Positions 20,088 through 42,922 of a stretch of DNA of 64,000 nucleotides are shown in pieces (position 1 is the stretch's first letter; every line of letters begins with the position of its first letter). The notes below the pieces were generated by a model. The model worked only from the letters and a program-made list of their open reading frames with translations. It ran no database searches and was not told where the DNA came from. The stretch spans positions 496,001-560,000 of the forward strand of contig NZ_QGNA01000004.1 in the NCBI RefSeq assembly GCF_003173615.1, read 5' to 3'. This DNA is from Falsiroseomonas bella (GTDB lineage: Bacteria; Pseudomonadota; Alphaproteobacteria; Acetobacterales; Acetobacteraceae). A program made the translations under genes and the position numbers.

Positions 20088-20205
20088 CGTCTTTGTCTCC
20101 CGGTTCTGGCGTATCGTATTCGGTTAGGCGGCCCGCGACGCATCGTCAACGCGGTTCGGGCCGGCGCCCGGCGATGACGCGGCCGTGCCGGCCCCTGCGG
20201 ACCGT

Positions 20206-20234
20206 TTGACACCCCCTGATCCTTGTCCGATATG
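20206..20234 (+). promoter_or_regulatory. Sigma-70-type promoter of the iorA to hydroxylase operon
   Basis: A perfect TTGACA (20206-20211), a 17-base spacer and GATATG (20229-20234, 3 of 6). This is the best promoter match I found in the window. The predicted transcription start, near 20240, lies downstream of two alternative iorA start codons (TTG 20223, ATG 20232) and so supports the ATG at 20286. Confidence 0.6.
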
Positions 20235-20285
20235 CGCGGTAAGGAATGGGTGCCGGGCTTTCCCATGCCGGCCGGGAGGTCACCG

Positions 20286-22451
20286 ATGGAGGTCTCGTTC
20301 CGGGAAGAGATCGCCTCGCTGCGCCTGGGCGCGGGCGAGACGTTCCGCGGCGAGGGCATCCTCGCGGTGACCAAGGCGCTGCTGCAATCCGGCGTCTCCT
20401 ATGTCGGCGGCTACCAGGGCGCGCCGGTCTCCCACCTCATGGATGTGCTGCTGCAGTCGGAGGACCTGCTGCAGGAGCTTGGCGTGCACCTGCAGACCTG
20501 CACGGGGGAGGCCGCGGCGGCGGCGATGCTCGGCGCCTCCGTCGCCTATCCGATGCGCGGCGCCGTCACCTGGAAGGCGATCGTCGGCACGAATGTCGCC
20601 GCCGATGCGTTGAGCAACCTGGCCTCGCCGGGCGTGATCGGCGGCGCGCTGATCGTGGTGGGGGAGGATTACGGCGAAGGGGCGAGCGTCGCGCAGGAGC
20701 GCAGCCACGCCTTCGCGCTGAAATCCTCCCTGCTGCTGCTCGATCCGCGGCCGGACCTGCCGACCATCGTGCGCATGGTGGAGCAGGGCTTCGCGCTGTC
20801 GGAAGCCTCGAACACGCCGGCGATGCTGGAGCTGCGCATCCGCGCCTGCCATGTCTTCGGGAGCTTCGTGGCGAAGGACAATCGCCGCGCGCCGATCAGT
20901 TTCCGCAACCCGGCGATGCCGGCGCGATTCGACTATGGTCGGCTTGCGCATCCGCCGGTGACTTTCCCGCAGGAGGCGGACAAGGTCGCCCGGCGCCTGC
21001 CGGCCGCGCGGCACTACATCCTGGAGCATGGGCTGAACGAGCTGCTGGGGCCGCCGGATGGCGAACTCGGCATCATCGTGCAGGGCGGGCTGTTCAACGC
21101 GCTGAACGCCGAGCTTGCGGCGCTGGGCCTTTCGGATGCCTTCGGCCGCCTGCGCATCCCGACGCTGGTGCTGAACGTCACGCATCCGCTGGTGCCGGAG
21201 CAGATCGCCGGCTTTTGCGCGGGCAAGCGCGGCGTGCTGGTCGTGGAGGAAGGCGCGCCGGACTATATCGAGCAGGCCATCGCGCAGATCCTGCGCAAGG
21301 CCGATCTCCACACGCCGCTGCACGGCAAGGATTTTCTGCCGCTGGCAGGAGAATACGCGCCGCCGGTGATCGCGGCGGGGCTCGCGCAGTTCCTCGACCG
21401 ATATGGCCAGCGCTTCGTGGCGATCCCCTCGCTCGCGCCGGCGGCGGCGGAGGCGGCGAAGCGCGCGGTCGGCGCGGTCATCCCGCCGCGCGCGCCCACC
21501 TTCTGCACCGGCTGCCCGGAGCGGCCGGTGTTCAGCGCGATGAAGCTGCTGCGGCAGGAAACGGGCCCGGTGCATGTCGCCGCCGATATCGGCTGCCACG
21601 CCTTTGCAACCTTCGCGCCCTTCCACCAGGGCAACACGATCCTGGGCTACGGAATGTCGCTGGCGAGCGCGGCCGCCGTCGCCGGGACCAACCAGCGCCG
21701 GCCGATCGCGGTGATGGGCGATGGCGGCTTCTGGCACAACGGGCTCAACACCGGCGTCGCCGGCGCGGTGTTCAATCGCGACGACGCGGTGCTGGTGGTG
21801 ATGGACAACGGCTATTCCAGCGCCACCGGCCTGCAGGACATTCCGTCCAGCCGCGAGGCGGACCATGAGGGCCGCGGCAAGGCCGTGCCGATCGAGCGCG
21901 CGATCAAGGGCGTGGGTGCCACCTGGGTGCGCACGGTCCACACCTATGACGTGCGCGGCGTGCTGCGGACGCTGAAGGACGCGCTGAGCGATCCGGTGAA
22001 GGGTCTGAAGGTGATCGTCGCGCGCGGCGAATGCATGCTGGCGAGGCAGAAGCGGCTGCGGCCCGCGCAGGCGAAGGCGATCGCGGCGGGGGAGCGCGTG
22101 GTACAGTCCCGCTTCGGCGTGGATGCGGAGGTATGTACAGGCGACCATGCCTGCATTCGGCTGAATGGCTGTCCCTCGCTGACGCTGAAGCCCTCCGGCG
22201 ACCCGCTGAAGGACGACCCGGTCGCGCATGTGAACAACGACTGCGTCGGCTGCGGCCTGTGCGGCGAGGTGGCGCATGCGGCGCAGCTTTGTCCTTCGTT
22301 CTACCGGCTGGACGTGATCCGCAATCCGGGCCGGTTGGATGTGTGGCGGCTGCGGATTGGCAACTGGTTCCTGCGGCTGTTCGGCGGCACGCCGATCACC
22401 GAGGCGCCGAAGCTGCGTCCACCGGCGGCCGTGCCGGTGCCGGCGGAATGA
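20286..22451 (+). CDS. iorA: Indolepyruvate ferredoxin oxidoreductase alpha subunit (aerobic type)
   Basis: A 721-aa thiamine-diphosphate enzyme subunit for oxidative decarboxylation of aryl-pyruvates to aryl-acetyl-CoA. The N-terminal pyrimidine-binding half contains GYQGAPVSHLMDVL. TPP binding is shown by GDGG at 478 onward, with VMDNGYSSATG downstream; the CTGCPERP motif lies before it. The C-terminal ferredoxin-like part has atypical cysteine spacing, with a CTGDHACIRLNGCP stretch and a C-x2-C-x2-C-x9-CP cluster. The chosen ATG follows a GGGAGG ribosome site (20274-20279) and lies about 45 bases after the predicted transcription start. The stop overlaps iorB by ATGA. Confidence 0.9.
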   Translation: MEVSFREEIASLRLGAGETFRGEGILAVTKALLQSGVSYVGGYQGAPVSHLMDVLLQSEDLLQELGVHLQTCTGEAAAAAMLGASVAYPMRGAVTWKAIVGTNVAADALSNLASPGVIGGALIVVGEDYGEGASVAQERSHAFALKSSLLLLDPRPDLPTIVRMVEQGFALSEASNTPAMLELRIRACHVFGSFVAKDNRRAPISFRNPAMPARFDYGRLAHPPVTFPQEADKVARRLPAARHYILEHGLNELLGPPDGELGIIVQGGLFNALNAELAALGLSDAFGRLRIPTLVLNVTHPLVPEQIAGFCAGKRGVLVVEEGAPDYIEQAIAQILRKADLHTPLHGKDFLPLAGEYAPPVIAAGLAQFLDRYGQRFVAIPSLAPAAAEAAKRAVGAVIPPRAPTFCTGCPERPVFSAMKLLRQETGPVHVAADIGCHAFATFAPFHQGNTILGYGMSLASAAAVAGTNQRRPIAVMGDGGFWHNGLNTGVAGAVFNRDDAVLVVMDNGYSSATGLQDIPSSREADHEGRGKAVPIERAIKGVGATWVRTVHTYDVRGVLRTLKDALSDPVKGLKVIVARGECMLARQKRLRPAQAKAIAAGERVVQSRFGVDAEVCTGDHACIRLNGCPSLTLKPSGDPLKDDPVAHVNNDCVGCGLCGEVAHAAQLCPSFYRLDVIRNPGRLDVWRLRIGNWFLRLFGGTPITEAPKLRPPAAVPVPAE

Positions 22452-23929
22452 GCACGCCCCGTGAACCCACCCGCATCCTGATCGCCGCGCTGGGCGGGGA
22501 GGGCGGTGGCGTGCTGGTGGACTGGATCACCCGCGCCGCCATCGAGGCCGGGCTGCATGCCACCCGCACCTCCATCCCCGGCGTCGCGCAACGCACCGGT
22601 GCCACGACCTACTATGTGGAGGTGATGCCGGCGCAGCCGGGCGATCCGCCGCCGGTGCTCGGGTTGAACGCCGCACCGGGGCGCGTCGACGTGTTCCTCG
22701 GCACCGAGTTGCTGGAAGCCGCGCGCCGGGCGGAGGGCGGCTTCCTGACCCGGGACCGCACGCTCGCGCTGGTCGCGCATCGCCGCGCCTACACCGTGAC
22801 GGAGAAATCCGAGGGCGGCGACGGCCGCATGGACGAGGCGCGGCTGGCGCAGGCGGTGAGGGAGACGGCGCGCGAGGCCGTGATCGCCGACTACGACGCG
22901 CTGGCGCGGCAGACGGGCGCGGCGCTGAACGCCGTGATGCTCGGCGTGCTGGCCGCGCGCGGTGCCGTGCCGATCCCGCCCGACGCCTTTCGCGCCGCGA
23001 TCCGCGCCGGCAGGGCGGCGGAGAGCAACCTGCGTGGTTTCGAGGCCGGCTTCGCGGGCGCGTCGACACCGGCGGCCGACGCCGCGCCGGCGCCCGGCGC
23101 CGGCCCGGGCGACCTGCCGGGGGAAGCGCGCGCGCTGGCCGCGGAAGGCGTAAAGCGCCTGACGGATTTCCAGGACGCGGCGCTGGCCGAGCAATACCGC
23201 GCCACGCTGCGCCGCTTCGCCGCGCTGCCCGGCGCGGATGGCGCGCTCGTCGCCGCGCTGGCGAAGCAGCTGGCGTTGCGCATGTCGTCGGAGGATGTGA
23301 TCCGCGTGGCGCAGCTCAAGCTGCGCGACGCGCGTCGCCCGCGGCTTGTCGCCGAGGCCAAGGCAAGGCCTGGCGACATCGTGCACGTCGTCGAGTTCAT
23401 GAAGCCCGGCCCGGCGGAAGTGCTCTCGCTGCTGCCGCCCGGCATCGCCCGGCCCGCGCTGCGCTTCGTGGAGCGGCGCGGCTGGATGGGGAAAAGCATC
23501 GCGCTGAATGTCTCGCCGACGCGCCCGCTCGGCTTCCTGCGGTTGCGCCTGCTCGCGGGCTTGCGCGGCTGGCGGAAGCGCACGCTGAAGCATGCGGAGG
23601 AGACGGCCTGGATCGCGGCATGGCTCGTGCTGGTGGAGCGCGCGCTGCCGCTCGGCACGCGGCTGGCGCGCGAAGTGGTGGACAGCGCGCGGCTGGTGAA
23701 GGGCTATGCCGCGACGGATGCGCGCACCCGCGCGAACTGGCGCCGCATCATGGAGGAGGTGCTGCGGCCGGCGCTGGACGGCAGGCTGCCGCCGGACCTC
23801 GCCGCGGATGCGCTGCTGCAGGCGCGGCTGGCGGCGCAGAAGGATCCCGAGGGCGACGCGCTGGACCGGACCCTCGCCGCCATCGCCGCGCGCATCGCCT
23901 CGCCCTCGCCGCGTCTTGCCGCCGACTAG
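22448..23929 (+). CDS. iorB: Indolepyruvate oxidoreductase beta subunit, long form
   Basis: A 493-aa partner of IorA. Residues 1 to about 200 form the pyruvate:ferredoxin oxidoreductase gamma-type domain (ILIAALGGEGGGVLVDWITRAA, SIPGVAQRTGATTYYVE). The C-terminal part, from about 220 on, is a long mostly helical extension (the region called DUF6537 in such proteins) that is absent from the roughly 200-aa archaeal IorB. Such long IorB proteins accompany the IorA type in aerobic proteobacteria. The start overlaps the iorA stop (ATGA). Its electron acceptor is not encoded nearby. Confidence 0.88.
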   Translation: MSTPREPTRILIAALGGEGGGVLVDWITRAAIEAGLHATRTSIPGVAQRTGATTYYVEVMPAQPGDPPPVLGLNAAPGRVDVFLGTELLEAARRAEGGFLTRDRTLALVAHRRAYTVTEKSEGGDGRMDEARLAQAVRETAREAVIADYDALARQTGAALNAVMLGVLAARGAVPIPPDAFRAAIRAGRAAESNLRGFEAGFAGASTPAADAAPAPGAGPGDLPGEARALAAEGVKRLTDFQDAALAEQYRATLRRFAALPGADGALVAALAKQLALRMSSEDVIRVAQLKLRDARRPRLVAEAKARPGDIVHVVEFMKPGPAEVLSLLPPGIARPALRFVERRGWMGKSIALNVSPTRPLGFLRLRLLAGLRGWRKRTLKHAEETAWIAAWLVLVERALPLGTRLAREVVDSARLVKGYAATDARTRANWRRIMEEVLRPALDGRLPPDLAADALLQARLAAQKDPEGDALDRTLAAIAARIASPSPRLAAD

Positions 23930-23957
23930 AACAACACGAAAAGGGAGGACCAAGGAC

Positions 23958-24932
23958 ATGATCCGCTTCACCCGCCGCACCGCGCTGGCGCTGCCCGCCC
24001 TGCTGGCCGCGCCGGCGGCGCGCGCGCAGGCCGACTGGCCGACGCGGCCCATCCGCATCGTGGCGCCCTTCCCGCCCGGTGGCCTGGCCGATGTGATGGC
24101 GCGCCCGCTGGCGGCGCGGATGCAGGCGGCCTGGGGGCAGCCGGCGGTGGTGGAGAACCGGCCCGGCTCCGGCGGCAACATCGGCGCCGACGTGGTCGCG
24201 AAGGCGGCGCCGGATGGCTACACCTTTCTTGTCGGCTCGATCGGGCCGATCGCGGCGAACGAGTTCCTCTTCGCCTCGCTGCCCTACAACCCGCGCACCG
24301 CCTTCGCGCCGATCGCGGTGCTGGCCACGACGCCGAAGGTGATCTGCGTCGGCGCGGGCAAGCCGTGGAAGAGCCTGGCAGAGCTGACTGCGGGGGCGAA
24401 GGCCGAACCGGGCCGGATCACCGCGGGGTCCGCGGGCAACGGCTCCTCCCTGCACCTGGCGCTCGAGCTGTTCAACGAGGCCGTGGGCACGCGCATCACC
24501 CATGTGCCGTATCGCGGCGCCGGGCCGGCGGTAAATGACCTGATCGGCGGGCAGATCGACTGCATCTTCGACAACGTCCCGAACATCCTCGGCCAGATCC
24601 GGGGCGAGCGGGTCCGCCCCCTGGCGACGCTCACCGCGCAGCGCCTGCCGCAACTGCCCGATGTGCCGACCATCGCCGAGGCGGGCGGCCCGCCGCTGGT
24701 CTTTGGCGCCTGGTTCTGCCTGGTGGCGCCGGCCGGCACGCCGGCGCCGGTCATCACCCGCGTCTCGGAGCAGGTGGACCTGATGATGCGGGACCTGGAG
24801 GTGGGCGGACGCCTGGCGGCCCAGGGCGCGGTGACCGGCGGCGGCGGGCCGCAGCCCCTGGCCGAGCTGATCGCCACCACGCGGACGCAGCTGGAGCCGG
24901 TGATCCGGCGCAACAACATCCGGGCCGAGTAG
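23958..24932 (+). CDS. Bug family (tripartite tricarboxylate) substrate-binding protein
   Basis: A 324-aa periplasmic binding protein of the Bug/TctC family, which binds carboxylates and nicotinate-like ligands. The signal peptide MIRFTRRTALALPALLAAPA ends in ARAQ and carries a twin-arginine-like TRRTALA. Hallmarks are WPTRPIRIVAPFPPGG, VVENRPGSGGNIGADVVAKAAPDGYT, HVPYRGAGPAVNDLIGGQID and VPTIAEAGGP. The ribosome site AAGGGAGG is 9 bases upstream. No TctA/TctB membrane partners are present, as is usual for expanded Bug sets. It lies between iorB and the Liv importer in one operon, so it may deliver a related ligand. Confidence 0.92.
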   Translation: MIRFTRRTALALPALLAAPAARAQADWPTRPIRIVAPFPPGGLADVMARPLAARMQAAWGQPAVVENRPGSGGNIGADVVAKAAPDGYTFLVGSIGPIAANEFLFASLPYNPRTAFAPIAVLATTPKVICVGAGKPWKSLAELTAGAKAEPGRITAGSAGNGSSLHLALELFNEAVGTRITHVPYRGAGPAVNDLIGGQIDCIFDNVPNILGQIRGERVRPLATLTAQRLPQLPDVPTIAEAGGPPLVFGAWFCLVAPAGTPAPVITRVSEQVDLMMRDLEVGGRLAAQGAVTGGGGPQPLAELIATTRTQLEPVIRRNNIRAE

Positions 24933-24973
24933 CGCTGCCGACTCGTCCGGACAACGTCTTGCCCTCCGGCGCG

Positions 24974-24996
24974 GCCCGGCGCAGATAGCGCCGGGC
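24974..24996 (+). terminator. Intra-operon hairpin between the Bug and LivK-like genes
   Basis: A perfect 9-bp stem GCCCGGCGC/GCGCCGGGC with loop AGATA lies in the only sizeable gap (98 bp) of the 14-gene operon. It may partly terminate transcription or protect the upstream mRNA 3' end. No T-tract follows. Confidence 0.4.
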
Positions 24997-25030
24997 GGGC
25001 TCCGGCCTGCAAACAGGGAGAAACACACCC

Positions 25031-26245
25031 ATGACCGCCTTCTCGCCTTCCCGCCGCACCGTGCTGCTGGGCGCGGCGGCCGCGCTGGCCGCCCCCCGGA
25101 TCGCCGGCGCGCAGCCCGCCGCCGTGAAGCTGGGCATCCTGCAGCCCGTCACCGGCGCGCTGGCGCAGGACGGCGAATACGGCCGCCTGGGCGCCGAACT
25201 CGCGATCAACGAGATCAACAGCACCGGCGGCATCCGCGCGCTTGGCGGCGCGCGGATCGAGATGGTGTTCGGCGATGCGCGCTCGAACCCGGAAGGCGGC
25301 ACGGCCGAGGTGGAGCGGATGAACTCCGAGGGTGTGGTGGCGGTGGTTGGCGGCTTCGCCAGCCCGATCTGCCTCGCCGCGTCGCAGGCCGCATCCCGCT
25401 ATGACCTGCCCTACGTCGTGGATGTCGGCGTGGCGGACACCATCGTCACGCGCGGGCTGCGCAACACCTTCCGTTTCGGGCCGGGCTTCGGGAAGGTGAC
25501 CTCGGGCGCGCTCGACAACCTGGTGAAGATCAACGAGGCCGCCGGCAAGCCGGCACGCACCGTGGTGGTGGTGCATGAGGACGGGCTGTTCGGCTCCGGC
25601 ATGGCGCGGCTGATGCAGAACGAGCTGCCGAAGCGCGGCTTCGAGGTGCTGGAGACGATCAGCCACCCGACGCCGGCGCGCGACATGTCCAATGTGGCGC
25701 TGCGCATCCGCGCGCTGAACCCGGACCTGATCATCCCGTCCAGCTACTATGCGGAGTTCGTGCTGCTGTCGCAGACGCTGCAGCAGCGCCGGATCCGGCC
25801 GAAGGGGATCTATTGCGTGCTGAACGGCGCGGCCTCCAACTTCCGCTTCGTGCGGGAATTCCCGCAGGCCGCCAACCTGGTGATGGACGTCAACCACTGG
25901 GCCGATCCGCGCAAGCCGAAGACCGCCGAGCTGCGCCGCGCGGTGGAGGCGCAGAACCGCTTCTGGCTCTACAACACGCCGCTGAACTACTCGGCCGTGA
26001 TGCTGGTGGCGGATGCGCTGGAGCGCGCCGGCCGCGCCGACCGCGCCGCCGTGATCGATGCGCTGGGCAAGACCGACGGCAGCTTCACCCGCCACATCAT
26101 GCCCTATGGGCCGACGCGCTTCGAGAACGGCCAGAACCAGGCGGCCCAGGCGGTGAACACCCAGGTGATCAACAACGACATCAAGGTGATCTTCCCCGAA
26201 GAGTTCGCGGATGCGCGCCCGGTGTTCCCCTGGCCTGCCAACTGA
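25031..26245 (+). CDS. Liv-type ABC transporter substrate-binding protein
   Basis: A 404-aa type I periplasmic binding protein for branched-chain amino acid-like or amide ligands. The signal peptide has a clear twin-arginine-like SRRTVLLG and ends near AGAQ. The mature start VKLGILQPVTGALAQDGEYG is the Peripla_BP_6 opening. VVAVVGGFASPICLAASQAA and TVVVVHEDGLFGSG form the two lobes. The ribosome site CAGGGAG is about 10 bases upstream. It is followed directly by livH, livM, livG and livF and so is the ligand-binding part of that importer. Confidence 0.92.
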   Translation: MTAFSPSRRTVLLGAAAALAAPRIAGAQPAAVKLGILQPVTGALAQDGEYGRLGAELAINEINSTGGIRALGGARIEMVFGDARSNPEGGTAEVERMNSEGVVAVVGGFASPICLAASQAASRYDLPYVVDVGVADTIVTRGLRNTFRFGPGFGKVTSGALDNLVKINEAAGKPARTVVVVHEDGLFGSGMARLMQNELPKRGFEVLETISHPTPARDMSNVALRIRALNPDLIIPSSYYAEFVLLSQTLQQRRIRPKGIYCVLNGAASNFRFVREFPQAANLVMDVNHWADPRKPKTAELRRAVEAQNRFWLYNTPLNYSAVMLVADALERAGRADRAAVIDALGKTDGSFTRHIMPYGPTRFENGQNQAAQAVNTQVINNDIKVIFPEEFADARPVFPWPAN

Positions 26246-26251
26246 TCCGCA

Positions 26252-27130
26252 TTGCGTTCCTACCCGCCTGAGATCATCGGGGAGGCCGTGCTCAACGGCC
26301 TCCTCACCGGGGCCATATACGGGCTGGTGGCGCTGGGGCTGACGCTGGTCTACGGCGTACTCCACATCATCAACTTCGCCCATGGCGCGCTGCTGACGCT
26401 GGCGATGTACGCCGCCTTCGTCGCGTGGAAGGTCTTCGGCCTCGATCCCTATGTCGCGATCCTGCCGCTCGTGCCGTTGTTCTTCGCGCTGGGCTACGGG
26501 GTGCAGCGGCTGGTGATCATGCCGGCGAGCAAGGGCGAGGATTCCAACATCCTGCTCGTCACGCTCGGCCTCTCGATCGTCATCGAGAACGTGATGCTGG
26601 CGATCTTCCGCTCCGACACACTTTCCGTGCAGGTGCCCTACGCGATGGAGGTTGTGGAGCTCGGGCCGATGCTGCTCGGCTTCCCGCGGGTGGTGGGCTT
26701 CGGCGTGGCCTTCCTGGTCGCTGCGGTGCTGTTCGTCATCCTCACCATGACGGACACCGGCCGCGCCATCCGCGCGGTGGCGAAGGAACGCACGGGCGCG
26801 GCGCTGGTCGGCATCGACGTGAAGCACATCTACGCCGTCACCTTCGGCATCGGCACGGCGTGCCTGGCGGTCGCCGCCTGCCTGCTGCTGCCCTTCTTCT
26901 ACGTGAACCCGCGGGTCGGCAACGCCTTCGTGCTGGTGGCCTTCACCATCGTCGTGCTGGGGGGCATGGGCAGCGTGCCGGGCGCGCTGCTGGGCGGCCT
27001 GTTCATCGGCGTGATGGAGAGCCTCTCGGGCCTCTATTTCGGCGAAAGCCTCGGCCAGATCGGCATCTTCCTGATCTTCATCCTGGTGCTGCTGTTCCGC
27101 CCGACGGGCTTGTTCGGGGCAAAGGCGTGA
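26252..27130 (+). CDS. livH: Branched-chain amino acid-type ABC permease LivH
   Basis: A 292-aa inner-membrane permease with about eight hydrophobic helices. Diagnostic segments: NGLLTGAIYGLVALGLTLVY at the N-terminus, INFAHGALLTLAMYA, and the LGGMGSVPGALLGGLFIGV segment near the C-terminus. The best start is TTG at 26252, six bases after the binding-protein stop; an internal GTG at 26288 would still retain all helices. The stop overlaps the livM GTG start. Confidence 0.92.
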   Translation: MRSYPPEIIGEAVLNGLLTGAIYGLVALGLTLVYGVLHIINFAHGALLTLAMYAAFVAWKVFGLDPYVAILPLVPLFFALGYGVQRLVIMPASKGEDSNILLVTLGLSIVIENVMLAIFRSDTLSVQVPYAMEVVELGPMLLGFPRVVGFGVAFLVAAVLFVILTMTDTGRAIRAVAKERTGAALVGIDVKHIYAVTFGIGTACLAVAACLLLPFFYVNPRVGNAFVLVAFTIVVLGGMGSVPGALLGGLFIGVMESLSGLYFGESLGQIGIFLIFILVLLFRPTGLFGAKA

Positions 27131-29523: not shown

Positions 29524-29536
29524 AGGGAAGCGCCCC

Positions 29537-30928: not shown

Positions 30929-32604
30929 CGTCTCTCGACCCCGTCACCCTCGCGGTCCTGAAGGGCCGGCTGGAGCAGATCGCGGACGAGATGGACGCGA
31001 CGCTCTATCGCAGCGCCTTCAACCCGATCATCGCGGAAGCGCGCGACGCCTGCCACGGCCTGTATCACGCCGAGACGGGCGCGACGCTGGTGCAGGGCAC
31101 GAAGGGCCTGCCGATTTTCGTCGGCGCCATGTCCTTCGCCGTGCAGGCGGTGATCCGCCGAGTGCAGAACGGCACGCCGCTGGAGCCCGGCGACACCTTC
31201 ATCTTCAACGACCCGTACGAGGGCGGCACGCATCTCAACGATTTCCGGCTGGTGCGGCCGATCTTTCGCGACGGGCAGGTCTTCTGCTGGATCGCGAGCG
31301 TAGGCCACTGGCTCGACATCGGCGGCAACGTGCCCGGCGGCTACAATCCGCGCGCGACGGAAAGCCACCAGGAAGGCGTGCGCATCCCACCGGTGAAGCT
31401 GATCCGCGCCGGCGCGATGCAGCAGGACATCCTGGACATCCTGAACGCCAACAGCCGCGTGCCGAATTCCAATTGGGGCGACCTGAACGGGCAGCTCAAC
31501 GCGCTCGATCTCGGCGAGCGTCGCCTGGTCCAGCTCATCGATGAGCATGGCGAGGCGAAGCTGCAGTCGGCCTTCGCCGCGCTTGCCGACCGCGCGGCGG
31601 CGCTGATGGAAGCCGAGATCCGCACCCTGCCCGAGGGCCGCTACAGCTTCGAGGATTACCTCGACAATGACGGCGTGGTGGATGAGCGCCTGACCATCGC
31701 GCTCGACATGACGATCCGCGACGGGCGCATGATGCTGGATTTCTCGCGCAGCAGCGCCGCCTGCCTCGGCCCGATCAACATCAGCCGCGCGACGAGCGTC
31801 GCGGCCTGCTATGTCGCGCTGAAGCATGCCTTCCCGGATGTGCCCGCCAATGCCGGCGTGCTGCGGCCGATCGAGTTCGTGATCCCGGACGACACCGTGC
31901 TCGGCGCCGGCCCGCCGCGGCCGATGGCCGGCTACACGGAGACCATCCTGCGGCTGATCGGCGTGATCTTCGGCGCGCTGGGGAAGGCGAAACCGGAGCG
32001 CGCGACGGCGGCACCCTTCGGCACGATCAACGCGCTTTCGCTGTCGGGCCAGCGCAGGGACGGCACGCGCTGGGTGATGTTTTCCTTCTTCGGCGGCGGC
32101 TTCGGCGGCAACCCGGAGACGGATGGTTTGCATCACGCCAACAACCCGATCTCGACCGCGACGATTCCGCCGGCGGAGATCCTGGAGGCGGCCTATCCCG
32201 TGATGTTCACGCAATGGGCGCTGCGGCCTGACTCGGGTGGCGTCGGCCAGCATCGTGGCGGCGTCGGCGCGGTGTATGAGATCGAGGCGCTGTCGCCCGG
32301 CACGACGGAGGTTGCGCTGCTTGGCGAACGCGGGCGCTACGCCCCCTTCGGCGTCACCGGCGGCGGAGAGGGCGCGCTGACGCGCTTCGCCTGGCAGACG
32401 GAGAGCGGGTGGGACACGCCGCCCATGGCGAGCAAGGTGGTCGGCGTGAAGATCCAGGCCGGGCAGCGCGTGCGGCTGGAAAGCCCGGGCGGCGGCGGCT
32501 GGGGGGATCCATCGAAGCGCCCGAAGGCGGCGATCGCGCGCGACATCCGCCTGGGCTTCGTCTCGCCGGAAGCGGCCGCGCGCGACTACGGATACCGCGA
32601 ATGA
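30925..32604 (+). CDS. hyuB: Hydantoinase B/oxoprolinase subunit
   Basis: A 559-aa HyuB-type subunit of an ATP-dependent cyclic-amide hydrolase (5-oxoprolinase, N-methylhydantoinase, caprolactamase) or of the related acetone and acetophenone carboxylases. Seen: PVTLAVLKGRLEQIADEMDATLYRSAFNPIIAE at the start (quoted in part: RLEQIADEMDATLYRSAF), FNDPYEGGTHLNDF, HWLDIGGNVPGGY, TRWVMFSFFGGGFGGNPE and LESPGGGGWGDP at the end. The length is normal. It is translationally coupled both upstream (PrpD) and downstream (hyuA), which is the partner subunit. Confidence 0.92.
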   Translation: MTSLDPVTLAVLKGRLEQIADEMDATLYRSAFNPIIAEARDACHGLYHAETGATLVQGTKGLPIFVGAMSFAVQAVIRRVQNGTPLEPGDTFIFNDPYEGGTHLNDFRLVRPIFRDGQVFCWIASVGHWLDIGGNVPGGYNPRATESHQEGVRIPPVKLIRAGAMQQDILDILNANSRVPNSNWGDLNGQLNALDLGERRLVQLIDEHGEAKLQSAFAALADRAAALMEAEIRTLPEGRYSFEDYLDNDGVVDERLTIALDMTIRDGRMMLDFSRSSAACLGPINISRATSVAACYVALKHAFPDVPANAGVLRPIEFVIPDDTVLGAGPPRPMAGYTETILRLIGVIFGALGKAKPERATAAPFGTINALSLSGQRRDGTRWVMFSFFGGGFGGNPETDGLHHANNPISTATIPPAEILEAAYPVMFTQWALRPDSGGVGQHRGGVGAVYEIEALSPGTTEVALLGERGRYAPFGVTGGGEGALTRFAWQTESGWDTPPMASKVVGVKIQAGQRVRLESPGGGGWGDPSKRPKAAIARDIRLGFVSPEAAARDYGYRE

Positions 32605-34655
32605 CCAGCAAACCGATTGTCGGCGTGGATGTCGGCGGCACCTTCACCGACCTGTTCCTGTTCGATCCCGCGCAGAACGCGTTCCGCACCGCCAAGGTGC
32701 CGTCCAACCGCGGCGACGAGGCGGTGGGGTTCATGAACGGGCTGCGCGCGCTCGGCGGCCCCGCGGGGTTCGAGGCGATCGTGCATGGCACGACCGTCGG
32801 GACCAACGCGCTGCTGGAGCGCAAGGGCGCGAAGCTCGGCGTGATCACCACGGCGGGCTTCCGCGACGTGCTGGAGATGCGCCGGCGCGACCGCCCGAAC
32901 ACCTGGGGCCTGTGGGGCGAGTTCCATCCGGTTGCCGAGCGCGACATGCGCATCGAAGTGCCGGAGCGCACGCTTGCCAACGGCACGATCCACACCAGGG
33001 TGGACATCGCCGCGGTGCAGGATGCGGCACATGAGCTGCTCTCGGCCGGCGCCGAAGCATGCGCCATCGTCTTCATCAACAGCTACGCCAACCCGGCGAA
33101 CGAGCGCGCGGCGGCGGCGGCGGTGCGGGCGATCTGGCCCAACCCGCATGTCAGCGTCAGCAGTGAGATCCTGCCCGAGATCCGCGAGTTCGAACGCGCC
33201 TCCACCACCGCGCTCAACGCCTATCTGCAGCCGGTCGTGGCGAACTACCTGGGCAAACTGGAAGGCGCGCTGAACCAGGCGGGCTTCGGCGGCCGCTTCC
33301 ATATCGTGCAGTCGAATGGCGGCATCATGTCCACCGCCACCGCGCGCGGCATTCCCGCGCGCACGGCGCTGTCGGGGCCTGCCGCCGGCGTGATCGCGGC
33401 GGCGGCCATCGCGCGCGCCGCGGGCTTCGAGAACGCCATCACCTGCGACCTCGGCGGCACCAGCTTCGATGTCTCGCTCGTCACCGGCGGGCGCATGGAA
33501 CTTGCGGCGCAGGCGACGATCGATTTCGGCCTGGTGATCCGCTCGCCGATGATCGAGATCACCACCATCGGCGCGGGTGGTGGCTCGATCGCGCATGTGG
33601 ATCGCGGCGGCCTGCTGCAGGTGGGGCCGGAGAGCGCGGGCAGCCGGCCCGGCCCGGTCTGCTACGGGCAGGGCAACACGCGGCCGACGTTGACGGATGC
33701 GAATGTCGTGCTGGGTCGTATCAATGCGGACCGACCCATTGGCGGCGCGCTGTCGCGGCTGGATGTGGAGGGCGCGAAGGCTGCCATCGCGCAGCATGTC
33801 GGCCAGCCGCTCGGCCTGGATGCGATGGCGGCGGCCGAGGCCATCGTGCGCGTCGCCAATGCGAAGATGGCGGGCGCGATCCGGCTCGTTTCCATCGAGC
33901 GCGGGCATGATCCGCAGAAGTTCGTGGCGCTTCCTTTCGGCGGCGGCGGTGCGCTGCATGTCGGCGCCCTGATCAAGGAGGTGGGGCTGAAGGCCGCGCT
34001 CGTGCCGCGCTTCCCCGGCGTCACCAGCGCCATCGGTTGCGTCATCGCCGATGTGCGGCATGACCAGGTGCGCACGCTGAATCTTTCGCTCGATGGTCTC
34101 GACTCTGCCGCGCTGGACGCGCGGATGGTTGAGGAAGCGAACAGCGCGCGGAGCGTGGTCGAGGCAGCCGGCCTGCCGGTGGCGCGCACGGACATCCGCT
34201 TCGAGCTCGACATGCATTATGCCGGCCAGACGCACACGGTCGGCGTGCCGCTGCCCGTGCATGTCATCGGCGGCACCACGGGCGTCAGCGAGGCGATCAT
34301 CCGCAGCGCCTTCGAGGCGGCCTATCAGCAGGCCTTCTCCCGCCTGCTGCCGGGGCTGCCGATCCGCATCGTCACGCTGCGCACCGCGGCCATCGGCATC
34401 CGGCCCGATTTCGACCTGGCGGCACTGGCGCCCGCTGCGGATGCCACGCTGGATGCTGCGGCGCGCGGCGCAAGGCAGGTGTGGTTCGACGGGGCGTGGC
34501 ACGCCGCCACGGTCTGGTCGCGGCTGGACCTGCCGGTCGGTGCGCTGGTGCATGGCCCGGCGATCCTGGAGCAGCCCGATGCGACGGTGGTGGTCGATCC
34601 CGACCTCGTCGCGCGGGTGGACCGCTTCGGCAACCTGATCATCGAGCGGGAATGA
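32601..34655 (+). CDS. hyuA: Hydantoinase A/oxoprolinase subunit
   Basis: A 684-aa HyuA-type subunit with an actin/ASKHA-like ATPase fold. Phosphate-binding segments are VGVDVGGTFTDLF at 7-19, HGTTVGTNALLERKGAKLGV, CDLGGTSFDVSLV and GAGGGSIAHVD. The C-terminal HyuA domain follows from about 510. With HyuB it would use ATP to open a cyclic amide, or to carboxylate a ketone. The absence of a small third subunit gene argues mildly for the oxoprolinase/hydantoinase side. The ATG overlaps the hyuB stop (ATGA). Confidence 0.92.
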   Translation: MTSKPIVGVDVGGTFTDLFLFDPAQNAFRTAKVPSNRGDEAVGFMNGLRALGGPAGFEAIVHGTTVGTNALLERKGAKLGVITTAGFRDVLEMRRRDRPNTWGLWGEFHPVAERDMRIEVPERTLANGTIHTRVDIAAVQDAAHELLSAGAEACAIVFINSYANPANERAAAAAVRAIWPNPHVSVSSEILPEIREFERASTTALNAYLQPVVANYLGKLEGALNQAGFGGRFHIVQSNGGIMSTATARGIPARTALSGPAAGVIAAAAIARAAGFENAITCDLGGTSFDVSLVTGGRMELAAQATIDFGLVIRSPMIEITTIGAGGGSIAHVDRGGLLQVGPESAGSRPGPVCYGQGNTRPTLTDANVVLGRINADRPIGGALSRLDVEGAKAAIAQHVGQPLGLDAMAAAEAIVRVANAKMAGAIRLVSIERGHDPQKFVALPFGGGGALHVGALIKEVGLKAALVPRFPGVTSAIGCVIADVRHDQVRTLNLSLDGLDSAALDARMVEEANSARSVVEAAGLPVARTDIRFELDMHYAGQTHTVGVPLPVHVIGGTTGVSEAIIRSAFEAAYQQAFSRLLPGLPIRIVTLRTAAIGIRPDFDLAALAPAADATLDAAARGARQVWFDGAWHAATVWSRLDLPVGALVHGPAILEQPDATVVVDPDLVARVDRFGNLIIERE

Positions 34656-34656
34656 C

Positions 34657-35259
34657 ATGGAACAGGTGCCGATCTCGCAGACCGCGCTGCTGCTCTGCGA
34701 CCTGCAGAACGACTTCATCCATCCGGACGGCGCCTATGGCCGTGCGGGGCAGTCGGCGGCGTCCATCGCGGCGCTGCCGGCGCGGCTGAAGCCGCTGGCG
34801 GATGCGATGCGCGCGAAGGGCGGCTGGATCGCCTCCACCCATTTCACGCTGTTCACCGGCAAGGGCGGCGAGCCTTTCATCGACCCGCATCTGCGCACGC
34901 TGCGCCCCTTCCTGAAGAAGGGCGACTTCGTGATGGGAAGCTGGGGTCACCAGGTGGTGGAGGAACTCGCACCCTCCGACCTGCCCGTGGAAAAGGTGGG
35001 CTACGACGCCTTCTATGCCACGCGCCTGGAATGGATCCTGCGCAAGGTCGGCATCCGCAAGCTGCAGGTTGCCGGCATCGTGACGAATGGCGGCGTATCC
35101 TCCACCGTGCGCGGCGCGCATGTGCGCGAATTCCAGGTGACGGTGCTGGAGGATGGCTGCGCGGCCTTCACGCAGGAATTGCACGACACGGCCATCGCGG
35201 CGCTGCGGCCGGTGGCGGAGATCAGCACGGTCGCCGCGGAACTGGCGAAGCTGCGATGA
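34657..35259 (+). CDS. Isochorismatase-fold hydrolase lacking the cysteine nucleophile
   Basis: A 200-aa protein of the isochorismatase/cysteine-hydrolase superfamily. Asp15 in LLLCDLQNDF and Lys113 in EKVGYDAF, two members of the usual catalytic triad, are present. The third position, normally Cys in a T-N-x-C-V context, is Gly146 in IVTNGGVSST. Amidases such as RutB or nicotinamidase need that Cys, whereas isochorismatases (EntB, PhzD) carry Gly there and act on vinyl ethers with Asp and Lys. It lies one base after hyuA and overlaps the next gene (ATGA). Its position invites an N-carbamoyl amidase call, which the sequence does not support. Confidence 0.85.
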   Translation: MEQVPISQTALLLCDLQNDFIHPDGAYGRAGQSAASIAALPARLKPLADAMRAKGGWIASTHFTLFTGKGGEPFIDPHLRTLRPFLKKGDFVMGSWGHQVVEELAPSDLPVEKVGYDAFYATRLEWILRKVGIRKLQVAGIVTNGGVSSTVRGAHVREFQVTVLEDGCAAFTQELHDTAIAALRPVAEISTVAAELAKLR

Positions 35260-36662
35260 AGGCGGAGGTCGTCACCGAAACCGATCCGCGTTTCCAGACG
35301 GAGGTGCCCGTCGCCATCATCGGGGCGGGTGCCGCCGGGCTGGTGGCGGCGCTGTCCTGCAAGGCGGCCGGGGTCGAGCCGCTGGTGATCGAGCGCGATC
35401 CGGTGCCGCGCGGCTCCACCAGCCTCTCTGCCGGGCTGATCCCGGCGGCCGGCACGCGCTTCCAGCGCGAGCGCGGCATTGCCGACGACGTGGAAACCTT
35501 CGCGGCCGACATCCAGAAGAAGGCGCATGGCCAGGCCGATCCGGCGCTGGCCGCGCTGGTGGCGCGCAATGTCGCGCCGGCGATCGAATGGCTGGCGGAT
35601 GCGCATGCGCTGCCCTTCAGCGTGGTGCATGACTTCGACTATCCCGGCCACACGCATCGCCGCATGCATGGGCTTCCGAGCCGCAGCGGCGCGGAACTCG
35701 TGGACCGGCTGCGCCAGGCGGCGGAAGAGGCGGAGATCCCGCTGCTGACCGAAGCGCGCGTCACCACGCTGATCCGCGACGCGTCCGGCGCGATCCGCGG
35801 CCTCGTCGCGGAGCGCCCCGATGGCAGCGCGGAGCGGGTCGGCGCGCGCGCCGTGGTGCTCGCCTGCTGCGGCTATGCGGGGAACAAGGCGCTCGTCCGC
35901 AAGTACATCCCGGACCTCGCGGAGGCGATCTATTTCGGCCATCCCGGCAATGAGGGCGAAGCGGTGCTGTGGGGCGAACAGCTCGGCGCCGATCTGCGCG
36001 ACATGACGGGGCATCAGGGCCACGGCTCGGTCGCGCATCCGCAGGGCATCCTGGTGTCCTGGGCCGTCATCATGGAAGGTGGCTTCCAGGTGAATCTCTT
36101 GGGCAAGCGCTTCTGGAACGAGAGTAGCGGCTATTCGGAAGCCGCAGTCGCGGTGCTGAAGCAGCCGGACGGCATTGCGTGGGATATCTTTGACCTGCGC
36201 ATCGCCGGCATCGCGCGGCAATTCGAGGATTTCCGGAACGCCGAGGAGCAGGGGGCGGTGCTGACCGCCGACAGCATCGAGGCGCTGGCCGCGAAGGCGA
36301 AGCTGCCCGCGGATGCGCTGCGCGCCAGCTTCGACGAAGTGGAATCGCACAAGCGTGCCAGCACGCCCGACGTCTTCGGGCGCGACTGGTCGCGTGGCGC
36401 GGCGCTCGCTGCGCCCTTCTGCGCAGTGCGCGTGACGGGCACGCTGTTCCACAGCCAGGGCGGGCTGGCCATCGACGATGCCGCGCGCGTGCGGCTTGCC
36501 GGCGGCGCAACCATCCCGAATCTCTTTGCCGCGGGTGGCGCAGCCTGCGGCGTCAGCGGGCCGGAGGCGTCGGGCTACCTGTCCGGCAACGGGCTTCTCA
36601 CGGCGGTGGCGCTGGGGCGCATCGCGGGGCTGAACGCGGCGTCGGTCGCGCAGGCGGAGTAG
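35256..36662 (+). CDS. FAD_binding_2 family flavoprotein (fumarate reductase/ketosteroid dehydrogenase-like)
   Basis: A 468-aa cytoplasmic flavoprotein. The FAD fold is VAIIGAGAAGLVAALSCKAAG near residue 20 (GAGAAG), followed by the second Glu of IERDP. The capping-domain region contains HTHRRMHGLPSRSGAELVDR, and the C-terminus has the FAD-closing GGLAIDDAARV and AAGGAACGVSGPEASGYLSG. This is the architecture of succinate/fumarate and 3-ketosteroid dehydrogenases; the physiological substrate is unknown. It is coupled to the isochorismatase-fold gene (ATGA) and ends four bases before the hydroxylase gene. Confidence 0.88.
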   Translation: MKAEVVTETDPRFQTEVPVAIIGAGAAGLVAALSCKAAGVEPLVIERDPVPRGSTSLSAGLIPAAGTRFQRERGIADDVETFAADIQKKAHGQADPALAALVARNVAPAIEWLADAHALPFSVVHDFDYPGHTHRRMHGLPSRSGAELVDRLRQAAEEAEIPLLTEARVTTLIRDASGAIRGLVAERPDGSAERVGARAVVLACCGYAGNKALVRKYIPDLAEAIYFGHPGNEGEAVLWGEQLGADLRDMTGHQGHGSVAHPQGILVSWAVIMEGGFQVNLLGKRFWNESSGYSEAAVAVLKQPDGIAWDIFDLRIAGIARQFEDFRNAEEQGAVLTADSIEALAAKAKLPADALRASFDEVESHKRASTPDVFGRDWSRGAALAAPFCAVRVTGTLFHSQGGLAIDDAARVRLAGGATIPNLFAAGGAACGVSGPEASGYLSGNGLLTAVALGRIAGLNAASVAQAE

Positions 36663-36666
36663 GACC

Positions 36667-38988
36667 ATGGACGACAAGTTCGGCATCGGGCAGCCCGTGC
36701 GGCGGAAGGAGGATGTGCGCTTCCTCACCGGCAAGGGCCGCTACACCGATGACATAGACATGCCGGGCCAGGCGCACCTGGCGATCCTGCGCTCGCCGCA
36801 CGCGCATGCGCGCATCGTCTCCATGGACACCACCGCCGCGAAGGCGGCGCCCGGCGTCATTGCCGTGCTCACCGGGCACGATGCGGATGCGGATGGCATC
36901 GGCCTGTTCCCGGTGCAGATCGAGGTGCCGGCGCGCGCCGGCACGCCGCCGCTCTACTGCCCGCCGCGGCGCATCCTGCAGACCGACGCCGTGCGCTTCG
37001 TCGGCGATCCCGTGGTCGCCGTCGTCGCCGAAACCCGAAGCCAGGCCGAGGACGCACTCGAACTGGTCGAGATCGAATACGAGATGCTGCCGGCCGCGAC
37101 CGACACCGGCAGCGCGCTCGATCCCGCGACGCCGGTGATCTGGCCGGAGCGCGGTTCCAACCTCTGTGTCGAATGGTCGAATGGCCGCGAGGAGCAAGCG
37201 GACGCCGCCTTCGCTGCCGCGGCGCATGTCGCGAAGGTCCGCCTGGTGCAGAACCGCGTGGTCGGCAACCCGATGGAGCCGCGCGTCGCCATCGGCGTCT
37301 GGAACGCCGAGAAGGAACGCTACGAACTCACCAGCCCCACCCAGGGCATGTTCCGCGTGCGCGACCCGATGGCACGCGACATCCTGAAGGTGCCGGCGGA
37401 CAAGCTGCGCGTGATGTCGCCCGACACCGGCGGCGGCTTCGGCCTGCGCAGCAAGTGTTTCCCTGAGTCCGCCATGGTGCTGTGGGCGGCGAAGAAGCTG
37501 GGCCGGCCGGTGAAGTGGCGCTCGGGCCGCTCGGAAACCTTCGTCTGCGATCCGCATGGCCGCGACCATGTCACGGAAGCGGAGATGCCCTTCGACGCCA
37601 ACGGCAAGGCGCTCGGCCTGCGTGTGCGCACCACGGCGGCGATGGGCGCCTATCTCTGCGATTTCGGCCCGCGCATCCCGACCATCGCCGGCGCGCGCAT
37701 CGCCGGCACGGTGTACGACCTGCAGGCGGTCAACATGCGGGTGAAGTGCGTGTTCACCAACACCGTGCCGACCGACGCCTATCGCGGCGCCGGGCGGCCG
37801 GAGATCGCCTATACCATCGAGCGCCTGCTCGATCTTGGCGCGGCGCATTTCGGCGTGACGAAGGACGAGATCCGCCGCCGGAACTACATCCGGCCGGACC
37901 AGATCCCCTACACCAACTGCGTCGGCAACGTGCTCGACAGCGGCGATTTCGGCGGCACGCAGCAGAAGGCGCTCGACCTCGCCGACTGGGCCGGCTTCGC
38001 GCGGCGCCGCGCCGAATCGCGCTCGCGGGGCAAGCTGCGCGGCATTGGCATCGGCTATTTCGTGGAGGCCTCGGGCGGCGCGCCGACTGAATGGGCGCGC
38101 GTGGCGATGACGGAGGACGGCAAGGCGCGGCTGCATGTCGGCACCTTCAGCCATGGCCAGGGGCACGAGACCGCCTTCGCGCAGATCGTCCATTCCCGCC
38201 TCGGCATCCCCTTCGAGGATGTGGTGCTGGTGCAGGGCGACACCGACGTGATCGAGACGGGCGGCGGCACGGGCGGAAGCCGGTCCTCCCAGATGGGGGG
38301 CGTCGCGACGCTGCGCGCCTCCAACGCCGTGCTCGACAAGGCGAAGCGCATCGCGGCCCACATGCTGGAAGCGTCGGTCGCGGATGTGGAGTTGGACGGC
38401 GCCCGCTTCCGCGTGGCTGGCACCGACCTTGCCGTGACGTGGCCGCAGGTGATCGCCCTCGCCAACGATCGGAAAAGACTGCCGGAGGGCGAGACGCCCG
38501 GCCTCGACGAGAAGGTGCTCTACAAGCGCGACACGGAGTGCAACTTCCCCAATGGCTGCCACGTGGCCGAGGTGGAGATCGATCCCGAGACGGGCGTGCT
38601 GGAGGTGGTGCGCTACGCCGCCGTGGACGATGTGGGGAATGTGATCAACCCGATGCTGGTCCACGGCCAGTCGCATGGCGGCATCGCGCAGGGCCTCGGG
38701 CAGGCGGTGCTGGAGGAAGCGCGCTACGACGCCGAGAGCGGGCAGTTCGTGAGCGCGACCTTCATGGACTACGCCATGCCGCGCGCGTCCGACCTGCCGG
38801 ACCTCGCCATTGACTTCAACGTAGTGCCGACGCCGGTGAACGAGCTCGGCGTGAAGGGCGCGGGGGAGGGCGGGGCCTGCGGCGCGCCTCCGGCCATCGT
38901 CAGCGCGGCCTGTGATGCGCTGGGTGTCGCGCATCTCGACATGCCCCTGACGCCGGAGAAGATCTGGCGCACGCTGCGGGCGGCCTGA
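36667..38988 (+). CDS. Xanthine dehydrogenase-family molybdopterin-binding subunit (lone large subunit)
   Basis: A 773-aa molybdenum hydroxylase large subunit, which hydroxylates N-heterocycles or aldehydes with water-derived oxygen. Seen: an N-terminal GQPVRRKEDVRFLTGKGRY, the a/b hammerhead domain, PDTGGGFGLRSK, the active-site loop AYRGAGR at 371-377 (form II; CO dehydrogenase form I would read AYRCSFR) and the catalytic base Glu734 in GVKGAGEGG. The normal partners, a 2Fe-2S subunit and an FAD subunit, are not encoded in this window. It is the last gene of the operon, followed by a perfect hairpin beginning within its last codons. Confidence 0.92.
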   Translation: MDDKFGIGQPVRRKEDVRFLTGKGRYTDDIDMPGQAHLAILRSPHAHARIVSMDTTAAKAAPGVIAVLTGHDADADGIGLFPVQIEVPARAGTPPLYCPPRRILQTDAVRFVGDPVVAVVAETRSQAEDALELVEIEYEMLPAATDTGSALDPATPVIWPERGSNLCVEWSNGREEQADAAFAAAAHVAKVRLVQNRVVGNPMEPRVAIGVWNAEKERYELTSPTQGMFRVRDPMARDILKVPADKLRVMSPDTGGGFGLRSKCFPESAMVLWAAKKLGRPVKWRSGRSETFVCDPHGRDHVTEAEMPFDANGKALGLRVRTTAAMGAYLCDFGPRIPTIAGARIAGTVYDLQAVNMRVKCVFTNTVPTDAYRGAGRPEIAYTIERLLDLGAAHFGVTKDEIRRRNYIRPDQIPYTNCVGNVLDSGDFGGTQQKALDLADWAGFARRRAESRSRGKLRGIGIGYFVEASGGAPTEWARVAMTEDGKARLHVGTFSHGQGHETAFAQIVHSRLGIPFEDVVLVQGDTDVIETGGGTGGSRSSQMGGVATLRASNAVLDKAKRIAAHMLEASVADVELDGARFRVAGTDLAVTWPQVIALANDRKRLPEGETPGLDEKVLYKRDTECNFPNGCHVAEVEIDPETGVLEVVRYAAVDDVGNVINPMLVHGQSHGGIAQGLGQAVLEEARYDAESGQFVSATFMDYAMPRASDLPDLAIDFNVVPTPVNELGVKGAGEGGACGAPPAIVSAACDALGVAHLDMPLTPEKIWRTLRAA

Positions 38989-39008
38989 CGCCGCCGGGCG
39001 GCGTCAGG
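38984..39008 (+). terminator. Operon-end hairpin overlapping the hydroxylase stop
   Basis: A perfect 11-bp stem CCTGACGCCGC/GCGGCGTCAGG with a 3-base loop includes the TGA stop at 38986-38988. It is the likely 3' end of the iorA-to-hydroxylase transcript. Confidence 0.6.
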
Positions 39009-39035
39009 CGCGCTGGCTGAAATGGCCGACCGGTC

Positions 39036-42912: not shown

Positions 42913-42922
42913 CGGCTCAGGC

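Follow-up and report, generated by a model that had tools for sequence, protein, structure and literature searches.

The gene cluster at positions 20286-38988 (+ strand) of a 64,000-nt stretch of Falsiroseomonas bella (contig NZ_QGNA01000004.1, positions 496,001 to 560,000; hereafter the window) is, with a probability that we put slightly above even, a remodelled version, peculiar to Falsiroseomonas, of a catabolic operon that is conserved in alphaproteobacteria and acts on a small cyclic amide (lactam, imide or ureide). Judged by its genes, this widespread and apparently undescribed gene set probably serves to take up a nitrogen-ring compound, to open its ring at the expense of ATP and to feed on the product. 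The original prediction, made from the letters of the window, had read 14 co-directional genes as one unit and as a single pathway that includes IorAB and MoL. The genes and their families are present as named; the import and ring-opening part of that reading survives, whereas the single-pathway aromatic part is now weak.

20286..22451, + strand: IorA-like 2-oxoacid:ferredoxin oxidoreductase alpha subunit, 721 aa (TIGR03336, 253 bits, cut-off 650.9)
22448..23929, + strand: IorB-like subunit with DUF6537 (NF006179, 437 bits, cut-off 348; PF20169, PF01558)
23958..24932, + strand: Bug/TctC-type periplasmic binding protein (PF03401)
25031..26245, + strand: LivJ-type substrate-binding protein (PF13458)
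26252..27130, + strand: LivH permease, TTG start (open reading frame; annotated orthologues)
27127..28077, + strand: LivM permease, GTG start (open reading frame; colinear orthologues)
28074..28829, + strand: LivG ATPase (open reading frame; colinear orthologues)
28822..29523, + strand: LivF ATPase (open reading frame; colinear orthologues)
29537..30928, + strand: MmgE/PrpD-family protein, PrpD (PF03972, PF19305)
30925..32604, + strand: HyuB, hydantoinase B/oxoprolinase subunit (PF02538, 567.7 bits)
32601..34655, + strand: HyuA, ATP-binding hydantoinase/oxoprolinase subunit (PF05378, PF01968, PF19278)
34657..35259, + strand: Iso, isochorismatase-fold protein with Gly replacing the catalytic Cys (PF00857)
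35256..36662, + strand: FlavoP, flavin adenine dinucleotide (FAD) enzyme of the flavocytochrome c / ketosteroid dehydrogenase superfamily (PF00890)
36667..38988, + strand: MoL, molybdopterin-binding large subunit of a Mo-hydroxylase (PF02738, PF20256, PF01315)

Ten of the 14 proteins were scanned; all ten have a Pfam family and eight an NCBIfam match (none for Bug or PrpD). LivH, LivM, LivG and LivF are named from colinear annotated orthologues (for LivH, a branched-chain amino acid ABC permease annotation). Seven of the 13 junctions are overlaps of 4 or 8 bp, so the predicted run of mostly 1-8 bp overlaps is roughly right, but the other six are gaps (1, 4, 6, 13, 28 and 98 bp), the widest of which separates Bug from LivJ.

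Within the genus, the cluster is a mosaic. Of 14 genus relatives, 13 have the whole 11-gene block that runs from LivJ to MoL, in colinear order; the contig of the fourteenth begins inside HyuB. Block genes are 75-97% identical to those of the window across the genus, with the exception of a 76-residue HyuB end piece in G002 (71%), and MoL orthologues (77-94% identity) occur in all 14 genus mates searched. IorA is present in three of the 15 genus genomes and absent from 12. Outside the window, it lies directly 5′ of the block in G007 and, on a broken contig, at the same EamA-side boundary in G014. Because an EamA-type gene, as in the window, adjoins the block in the four relatives without IorAB that were inspected, IorAB-Bug looks as if it was inserted before the block, although loss elsewhere in the genus is a possible alternative. 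A single indivisible 14-gene operon is ruled out by the restricted occurrence of IorA together with a conserved element before LivJ, described below.

Loci for the wider comparison came from a PrpD-alignment search of genome contigs, of which the best 80 of 287 encoded relatives, biased to close PrpD, were used. They comprise 12 Falsiroseomonas loci (L020-L031) and 68 loci outside the genus; 11 of the 12 genus loci are the contigs of the 14-relative comparison, and those two counts are not independent. Gene presence was scored by fixed identity thresholds in stretches of at most 10 kb on each side of PrpD, and some misses are contig ends. Of the 68 outside loci, which include Azospirillum, Methylobacterium, Microvirga and Bosea, 54 have a core of 11 genes (five Liv genes, PrpD, a lyase, HyuB, HyuA, Iso and FlavoP), mostly together with GntR and LeuCD. 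Gene by gene, the lyase is found in 65, HyuB in 63, HyuA in 62, FlavoP in 60, Iso in 59, LeuC and LeuD in 57 each, GntR in 54, IorA in one and MoL in none. The 12 Falsiroseomonas loci show the reverse, with no lyase, LeuC or GntR and with MoL in 11, the remaining stretch (L030) ending before it. Annotated plasmid copies keep the same order in Roseomonas haemaphysalidis and, with additional genes, in Neorhizobium. The claim of one 14-gene unit therefore falls, since IorA is missing from most of the genus and MoL from the retrieved stretches of all 68 outside loci. Separate occurrence of the gene blocks in relatives had been named beforehand as what would speak against it, and this is found in part: IorAB is confined to a minority of the genus, and of the loci seen, only those of this genus have MoL in the operon.

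For the single-pathway claim, the comparison retains import and ring opening, but three components of most outside loci, namely the lyase, the LeuCD hydratase and the GntR regulator, are missing from the window operon. The window copy could thus be re-purposed or partly decayed, only opening or modifying its compound while the product is diverted. We regard this as rather unlikely. The lyase, LeuC and GntR are missing from every Falsiroseomonas locus, and among the 12 genus genomes searched a GntR orthologue occurs in just one (G009), away from the operon and in surroundings without operon homologues; yet the 11 remaining genes are intact and 75-97% identical across the genus, which argues for selection on the block.

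The lyase of the outside loci resembles methylisocitrate lyase. Fifty-four operon lyases are mutually 54-99% identical, and the three that were scanned score 291.8, 296.0 and 289.7 bits against PrpB (cut-off 354.4). With these scores below the cut-off and no PrpC recognised by inspection among the recurrent neighbours, membership of the 2-methylcitrate cycle was rejected. PrpD itself has IRG1-type cis-aconitate decarboxylases and IDS epimerase as its nearest solved relatives (71-90 bits). The window genome holds two LeuC copies, one adjoining a LeuB-like gene (by inspection); the second (C9:12659) does not group with the operon-type clade in a small tree built with every fourth operon-type sequence.

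FlavoP provides a second view of this context. At the threshold applied, 37 of 385 genomes of the class, that of the window among them, have homologues, and 20 neighbourhoods were chosen from 41 places beyond the window. Among these, 12 have the lyase (at least 57% identity), nine HyuA and HyuB, ten Iso, nine a LeuC-type gene and three PrpD (at least 50%). In eight of the nine LeuC-bearing neighbourhoods LeuC is only 33-38% like the operon type, and the one such LeuC′/LeuD′ pair that was scanned passes the hacA and LeuD/DmdB cut-offs. Further afield, haloarchaeal plasmids pair Liv genes with PrpD at 40-43% identity. On the Haloferax and Natrinema plasmids (L119, L120), Liv genes, PrpD and an LLM flavin oxidoreductase are clustered, the Haloferax cluster with isochorismatase-fold and amidohydrolase genes and the other with LeuCD, lyase and HMG-CoA-lyase-like genes.

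The sequences of HyuA and HyuB point to the hydrolase type. HyuA carries DVGGT at 10, DLGGT at 283 followed by Asp290, and GSRPGP at 347, and in HyuB all four metal-ligand positions (D41, H103, D106, H128) are occupied. In the portions available, one source describes hydrolase-type enzymes by DxGGT and GxxPGP ATP motifs and D/H/D/H metal ligands (PMC8453981), and another by two subunits in the gene order hydAB (PMC5214803). The cluster accordingly has alpha and beta genes without a gamma subunit gene, and no third carboxylase subunit is encoded among the 14 genes. The best solved relatives are 7hk5, an N-methylhydantoinase and the best match of HyuA, and 6yra, labelled 5-oxoprolinase/hydantoinase, which we take to be caprolactamase. 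Hidden Markov model (HMM) scores likewise favour caprolactamase for HyuAB, yet stay below its cut-off of 1000. The predicted import and ATP-dependent ring opening thus draws on the HyuAB motifs, on the lack of a third carboxylase subunit and on the conservation of Liv, PrpD, HyuBA, Iso and FlavoP across many alphaproteobacterial genera. The family also includes acetone and acetophenone carboxylases, and HyuAB might be an ATP-dependent ketone carboxylase whose carboxylated product the remaining enzymes process. We consider this highly improbable given the two subunits, the HMM preference and HyuA Asp290, which stands where, in the text available, one acetophenone carboxylase subunit has Lys281 (PMC8453981).

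Iso departs from the cysteine amidases at their catalytic residue. In an alignment with RutB, the catalytic Cys corresponds to Gly146, and the surrounding TNGG is found in all 55 Iso cluster members, in all nine HyuAB-linked copies of the 20 FlavoP neighbourhoods and in L134, a contig ending beside Iso. Asp15 and Lys113 are invariant in 29 of 29 aligned sequences. The structure model is of moderate confidence (mean predicted local distance difference test score (pLDDT) 75.2) and matches the folds of RutB, biuret hydrolase and relatives. As the nucleophilic Cys is missing, a role as cysteine amidase or N-carbamoyl amidase is disfavoured. This bears on a hydantoin/creatinine-type ureide pathway, in which HyuAB would open a hydantoin and Iso would remove the carbamoyl group as an N-carbamoylsarcosine amidase. 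That the best solved relative of HyuA is an N-methylhydantoinase, that the nearest solved relatives of Iso include the ureide amidases RutB and biuret hydrolase, and that Neorhizobium has two Asp/Glu/hydantoin-racemase genes are all in keeping with such a pathway; with the Cys absent from every cluster member and every HyuAB-linked wider copy, and with no role there for the lyase, PrpD or LeuCD, we judge it improbable.

In FlavoP, Tyr293 aligns with position 402 of flavocytochrome c3 and Tyr441 with the Arg of NRLGGN, presumably the second catalytic Arg of fumarate reductase. Both tyrosines, together with H256 and H399, are invariant in 76 of 76 FlavoP sequences, and structure 1jrz, titled as an Arg402Tyr mutant, is among the fold matches. 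The FlavoP model (pLDDT 87.5) is nearest to urocanate and fumarate reductases, then to ketosteroid and cyclohexanone dehydrogenases. Since two tyrosines replace the catalytic arginines in all 76 sequences, a fumarate reductase or tricarballylate dehydrogenase role is disfavoured. The 3-ketosteroid dehydrogenase (KSTD), as described in the accessible text, relies on Tyr318 and Tyr487 to abstract a proton and bring about enolisation (PMC5348764). Because KSTD works through tyrosines, FlavoP may catalyse a carbonyl-activated C-C desaturation or reduction, an analogy in which Tyr293 and Tyr441 are placed at the fumarate-reductase Arg positions and KSTD is matched by fold only.

MoL has AYRGAGR at 371 and GAGEGG, and reaches the curated cut-off of none of the 13 families listed. 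An aerobic CO dehydrogenase was rejected (579.7 bits against a cut-off of 950 and 524.2 against 991), the CoxM and CoxS partners also being missing. No FAD or Fe-S subunit gene for MoL is present in the operon, and contig C9 has no Fer2_2 match, with eight elsewhere in the genome. In three other genera, MoL homologues stand away from the operon. One locus, L111 (G029 contig C54), has a MoL homologue with PrpF-like and LeuCD-like genes within a few kb (sequence inspection).

The earlier proposal of an aromatic substrate rests on IorAB, of which IorB exceeds its family cut-off and IorA falls well below its own. IorAB recurs near FlavoP-type genes in three settings: the window, L073 (where IorAB lies 5′ of two Bug genes, PrpD and FlavoP) and G041 (where IorA and FlavoP lie close to each other in divergent orientation). 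None of ten further IorAB neighbourhoods has PrpD, and their sole FlavoP-like match is at 25%; the IorAB-FlavoP link is suggestive only. In L125 and L127, IorAB stands beside HyuAB (34/29-30% identical to those of the window) and tryptophan dioxygenase- and kynureninase-like genes, a possible indole route in other families. In the window, an aromatic or N-heteroaromatic acid could pass through IorAB, MoL and HyuAB in turn, for example by conversion of indolepyruvate to indoleacetate, hydroxylation at C2 by MoL and the use of ATP to open the oxindole lactam. The pairing of a Mo-hydroxylase with HyuAB is reminiscent of anaerobic indoleacetate catabolism, and we still consider such a series quite unlikely. 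It is opposed by the three of 15 genus genomes with IorA, the absence of MoL from all 68 outside loci, the low IorA score, the lack of a CoA ligase or mutase among the 14 genes (none was recognised among the recurrent neighbours either) and the low identity to the window's HyuAB of the copies that elsewhere accompany IorAB and tryptophan-degradation-like genes. The literature searched yielded nothing on hydantoinase-type degradation of indole-3-acetic acid or oxindole, and two auxin papers contain no mention of a hydantoinase. Because IorAB is limited to a genus minority and no locus seen outside this genus has MoL in the operon, aryl-pyruvate chemistry and Mo hydroxylation probably lie outside the older pathway, a reading of presence and absence that no tree polarises.

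Transcription may likewise be divided. Three elements bear on this:

20205..20240, + strand: P1, promoter-like element 5′ of IorA (TTTGACA ... ATATGCGC; written TTTGACA...ATATGC), kept in three IorA carriers
24943..24990, + strand: P2, promoter/operator-like element inside the cluster, 5′ of LivJ (CGTCCGGACA, CTTGCC, GCAGATA), from the genus alignment
38983..39009, no strand: perfect inverted repeat across the MoL stop codon, no T-tract

P1 is common to the window and the two other IorA carriers, though most of the flank differs among these three. The GTCCGGACA of P2 is retained in 11 of 14 aligned genus sequences, loci without IorAB among them, and is missing from G014 (an IorA carrier), G009 and G010. 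Where one good promoter had been proposed, the sigma-70 consensus scan called neither P1 nor P2; conservation of P1 in the other carriers agrees with the proposal, and the conserved element between Bug and LivJ makes two promoters likely, with both P1 and P2 predicted from their sequences to be active. A longer P2 pattern has a single copy in the window genome in a genome-wide search, so no further regulon members can be named. In a looser scan for a possible shared operator, made without a chance control, GTCCGGAC was found in the stretch before GntR or LivJ in four of 58 outside loci and seven of 12 genus loci; the scan depends on start-codon choice and so misses some genus loci, and a stricter first palindrome pattern missed most genus loci bearing the P2 element.

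The perfect hairpin that was thought to end the operon exists as an inverted repeat with 13-bp arms and a 1-nt centre. Because it reaches across the last stop codon and lacks a T-tract, it does not qualify as a canonical intrinsic terminator, and it went uncalled in the terminator scan. The repeat was not found in the same form at this place in the 14 genus relatives. Perfect arms of at least 11 bp occur at six distinct sites in the window (12 listings including nested ones), against 0-5 listings in ten Markov controls. Two more perfect inverted repeats with 13-bp arms lie at 11589-11615 and 45541-45567.

The remodelled cyclic-amide operon can be cast as a pathway whose reactions, step order and substrate class we infer from gene content, conservation and active-site residues. 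The Liv transporter would take up the cyclic amide, and FlavoP would form or remove a C=C bond adjacent to a carbonyl by means of two tyrosines, in the manner of ketosteroid dehydrogenases. HyuA would phosphorylate the amide carbonyl with ATP and HyuB would hydrolyse the C-N bond, opening the ring. The Cys-less Iso would then protonate and hydrolyse the enol- or enamine-type product, without cysteine amidase action, and PrpD would hydrate, dehydrate or isomerise the unsaturated carboxylic acid so formed. Most relatives would finish with a hydratase of the LeuCD or DmdAB/HacAB type and an enzyme of the methylisocitrate lyase type, which would split the hydroxy-diacid to give a 2-oxo acid and a carboxylate. 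The operon of the window lineage does not contain these hydratase and lyase genes; it has MoL, which may pre-hydroxylate a ring, and in three of the 15 genus genomes it is preceded by IorAB with a promoter-like element of its own.

Several observations weigh against this pathway. No lyase orthologue was found in the window genome; over the genus, the best matches are 42-48% identical to the Azospirillum lyase, against at least 54% among operon lyases (the absence rests on this identity gap, and the lyase tree included only some of the genome's seven lyase-like genes). By its gene content the window pathway would thus have no enzyme for the cleaving step, unless a paralogue takes that part. Eight of the 20 FlavoP neighbourhoods likewise have no lyase at the 57% level in the retrieved stretch. 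HyuAB ring opening is not obligatory, because two of these neighbourhoods (L135, L150) have the lyase and neither HyuAB nor Iso, and Tistrella keeps PrpD, the lyase and a flavoprotein without HyuAB or Iso. The gene order HyuB-HyuA is the reverse of hydAB if alpha is taken as the ATP-binding subunit, and an imide or hydantoin substrate would call for a Cys-dependent amidase, which Iso, lacking the Cys, does not provide. On the other side, L135, L144 and the Verticiella PrpD locus L088 have a Cys-type isochorismatase-fold protein beside polysaccharide-deacetylase (PuuE-like) genes; PF01522 is found in L088 and L135, the L135 gene also matches the allantoinase PuuE model below its cut-off, and L144 is assigned by sequence likeness only. 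Judged by sequence, such cyclic-amide openers of other folds in comparable clusters (PuuE-like; the Haloferax amidohydrolase) appear to favour the proposed pathway. A further polysaccharide-deacetylase/PuuE-like gene lies 3′ of FlavoP in a HyuAB-type cluster (L143, 10534-11448, by inspection).

A more specific possibility, which we hold to be unlikely, is an undescribed widespread pathway in which HyuAB ring opening is coupled to hydrolysis of an enamine or enol product by the Cys-less Iso, feeding substituted maleates into a methylcitrate-like hydratase and lyase. If so, the substrate class could be N-heterocycles that give substituted maleic acids, such as the maleimides of tetrapyrrole breakdown, for instance hematinic acid. 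One fold would then serve two chemistries at the same pathway position, a Gly type with HyuAB and a Cys type with PuuE-like openers. By title or abstract, the literature searched holds no bacterial gene cluster for hematinic acid or maleimide degradation. Nor was the gene combination found described in that literature, whose reach leaves out most subscription journals (further sources, cited from the parts available: PMC11630574, PMC12633357, PMC8220720). Conservation of the core in many soil- and plant-associated alphaproteobacteria suggests a common environmental nitrogen-ring compound whose breakdown is apparently unassigned in the literature searched. The complementarity of lyase and MoL between genera and the strict pairing of HyuAB with the Cys-less Iso make this annotation puzzle experimentally tractable.

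The surroundings of the cluster hold other genes. Divergent neighbours at 13487-19835 (- strand) encode an allantoinase/dihydroorotase-like amidohydrolase, a weakly SsuA-like binding protein, a DAO-type FAD oxidase and an EamA exporter; among the 80 PrpD-anchored loci, the SsuA-like and EamA clusters each recur in eight and the oxidase in four, mostly in genus relatives. Possible nitrogen-compound genes at 40370-59675 include an RraA-like protein (PF03737), two B6-type ABC permeases (below cut-off), two more amidohydrolases (weak matches) and a second oxidase whose start resembles that of the oxidase at 17644.

With the ATP-dependent hydantoinases, oxoprolinases and caprolactamases (Hyd branch; CapAB, N-methylhydantoinase), HyuAB shares two subunits, ATP motifs and the four metal-ligand positions. 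It differs in its HyuB-HyuA order, in the constant Cys-less isochorismatase-fold neighbour and in its other operon partners. Iso has the fold of the cysteine amidases RutB and BiuH and is closer to them in sequence than to EntB, but is without their nucleophilic Cys. With E. coli EntB it shares the fold and a Gly at the Cys position (BLASTP), and differs in its sequence, nearer the amidases, and in its catabolic context. True isochorismatases belong to a siderophore or phenazine context. FlavoP has the fold of flavocytochrome c fumarate reductase but tyrosines in place of two of its arginines, so that binding of a fumarate-like diacid as through those arginines is unlikely; it also matches the fold of 3-ketosteroid dehydrogenase, an enzyme that works with tyrosines.

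At the level of pathways, the anaerobic indoleacetate pathway of Aromatoleum is similar in combining a Mo-hydroxylase with a HyuAB-type lactamase, a likeness confined to the window lineage. It differs by the CoA ligase and mutase that the 14 genes lack and by the absence of MoL from the outside loci; the iaa proteins were not compared directly. The nicotinate fermentation of Eubacterium barkeri proceeds through an enamidase, a B12 mutase, DmdAB and dimethylmalate lyase. Some relatives resemble it in ending on a LeuD/DmdB-family hydratase and an isocitrate lyase (ICL)-family lyase, but here HyuAB would open the ring, and neither enamidase nor B12 mutase was recognised among the recurrent neighbours. 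The 2-methylcitrate cycle (PrpD, an aconitase-type hydratase and PrpB) differs in that no PrpC was recognised, that the lyase scores below the PrpB cut-off and that lyase and hydratase are missing from the window operon; its logic of dehydratase, hydratase and ICL-family lyase is nevertheless the one that most relatives of the cluster share.

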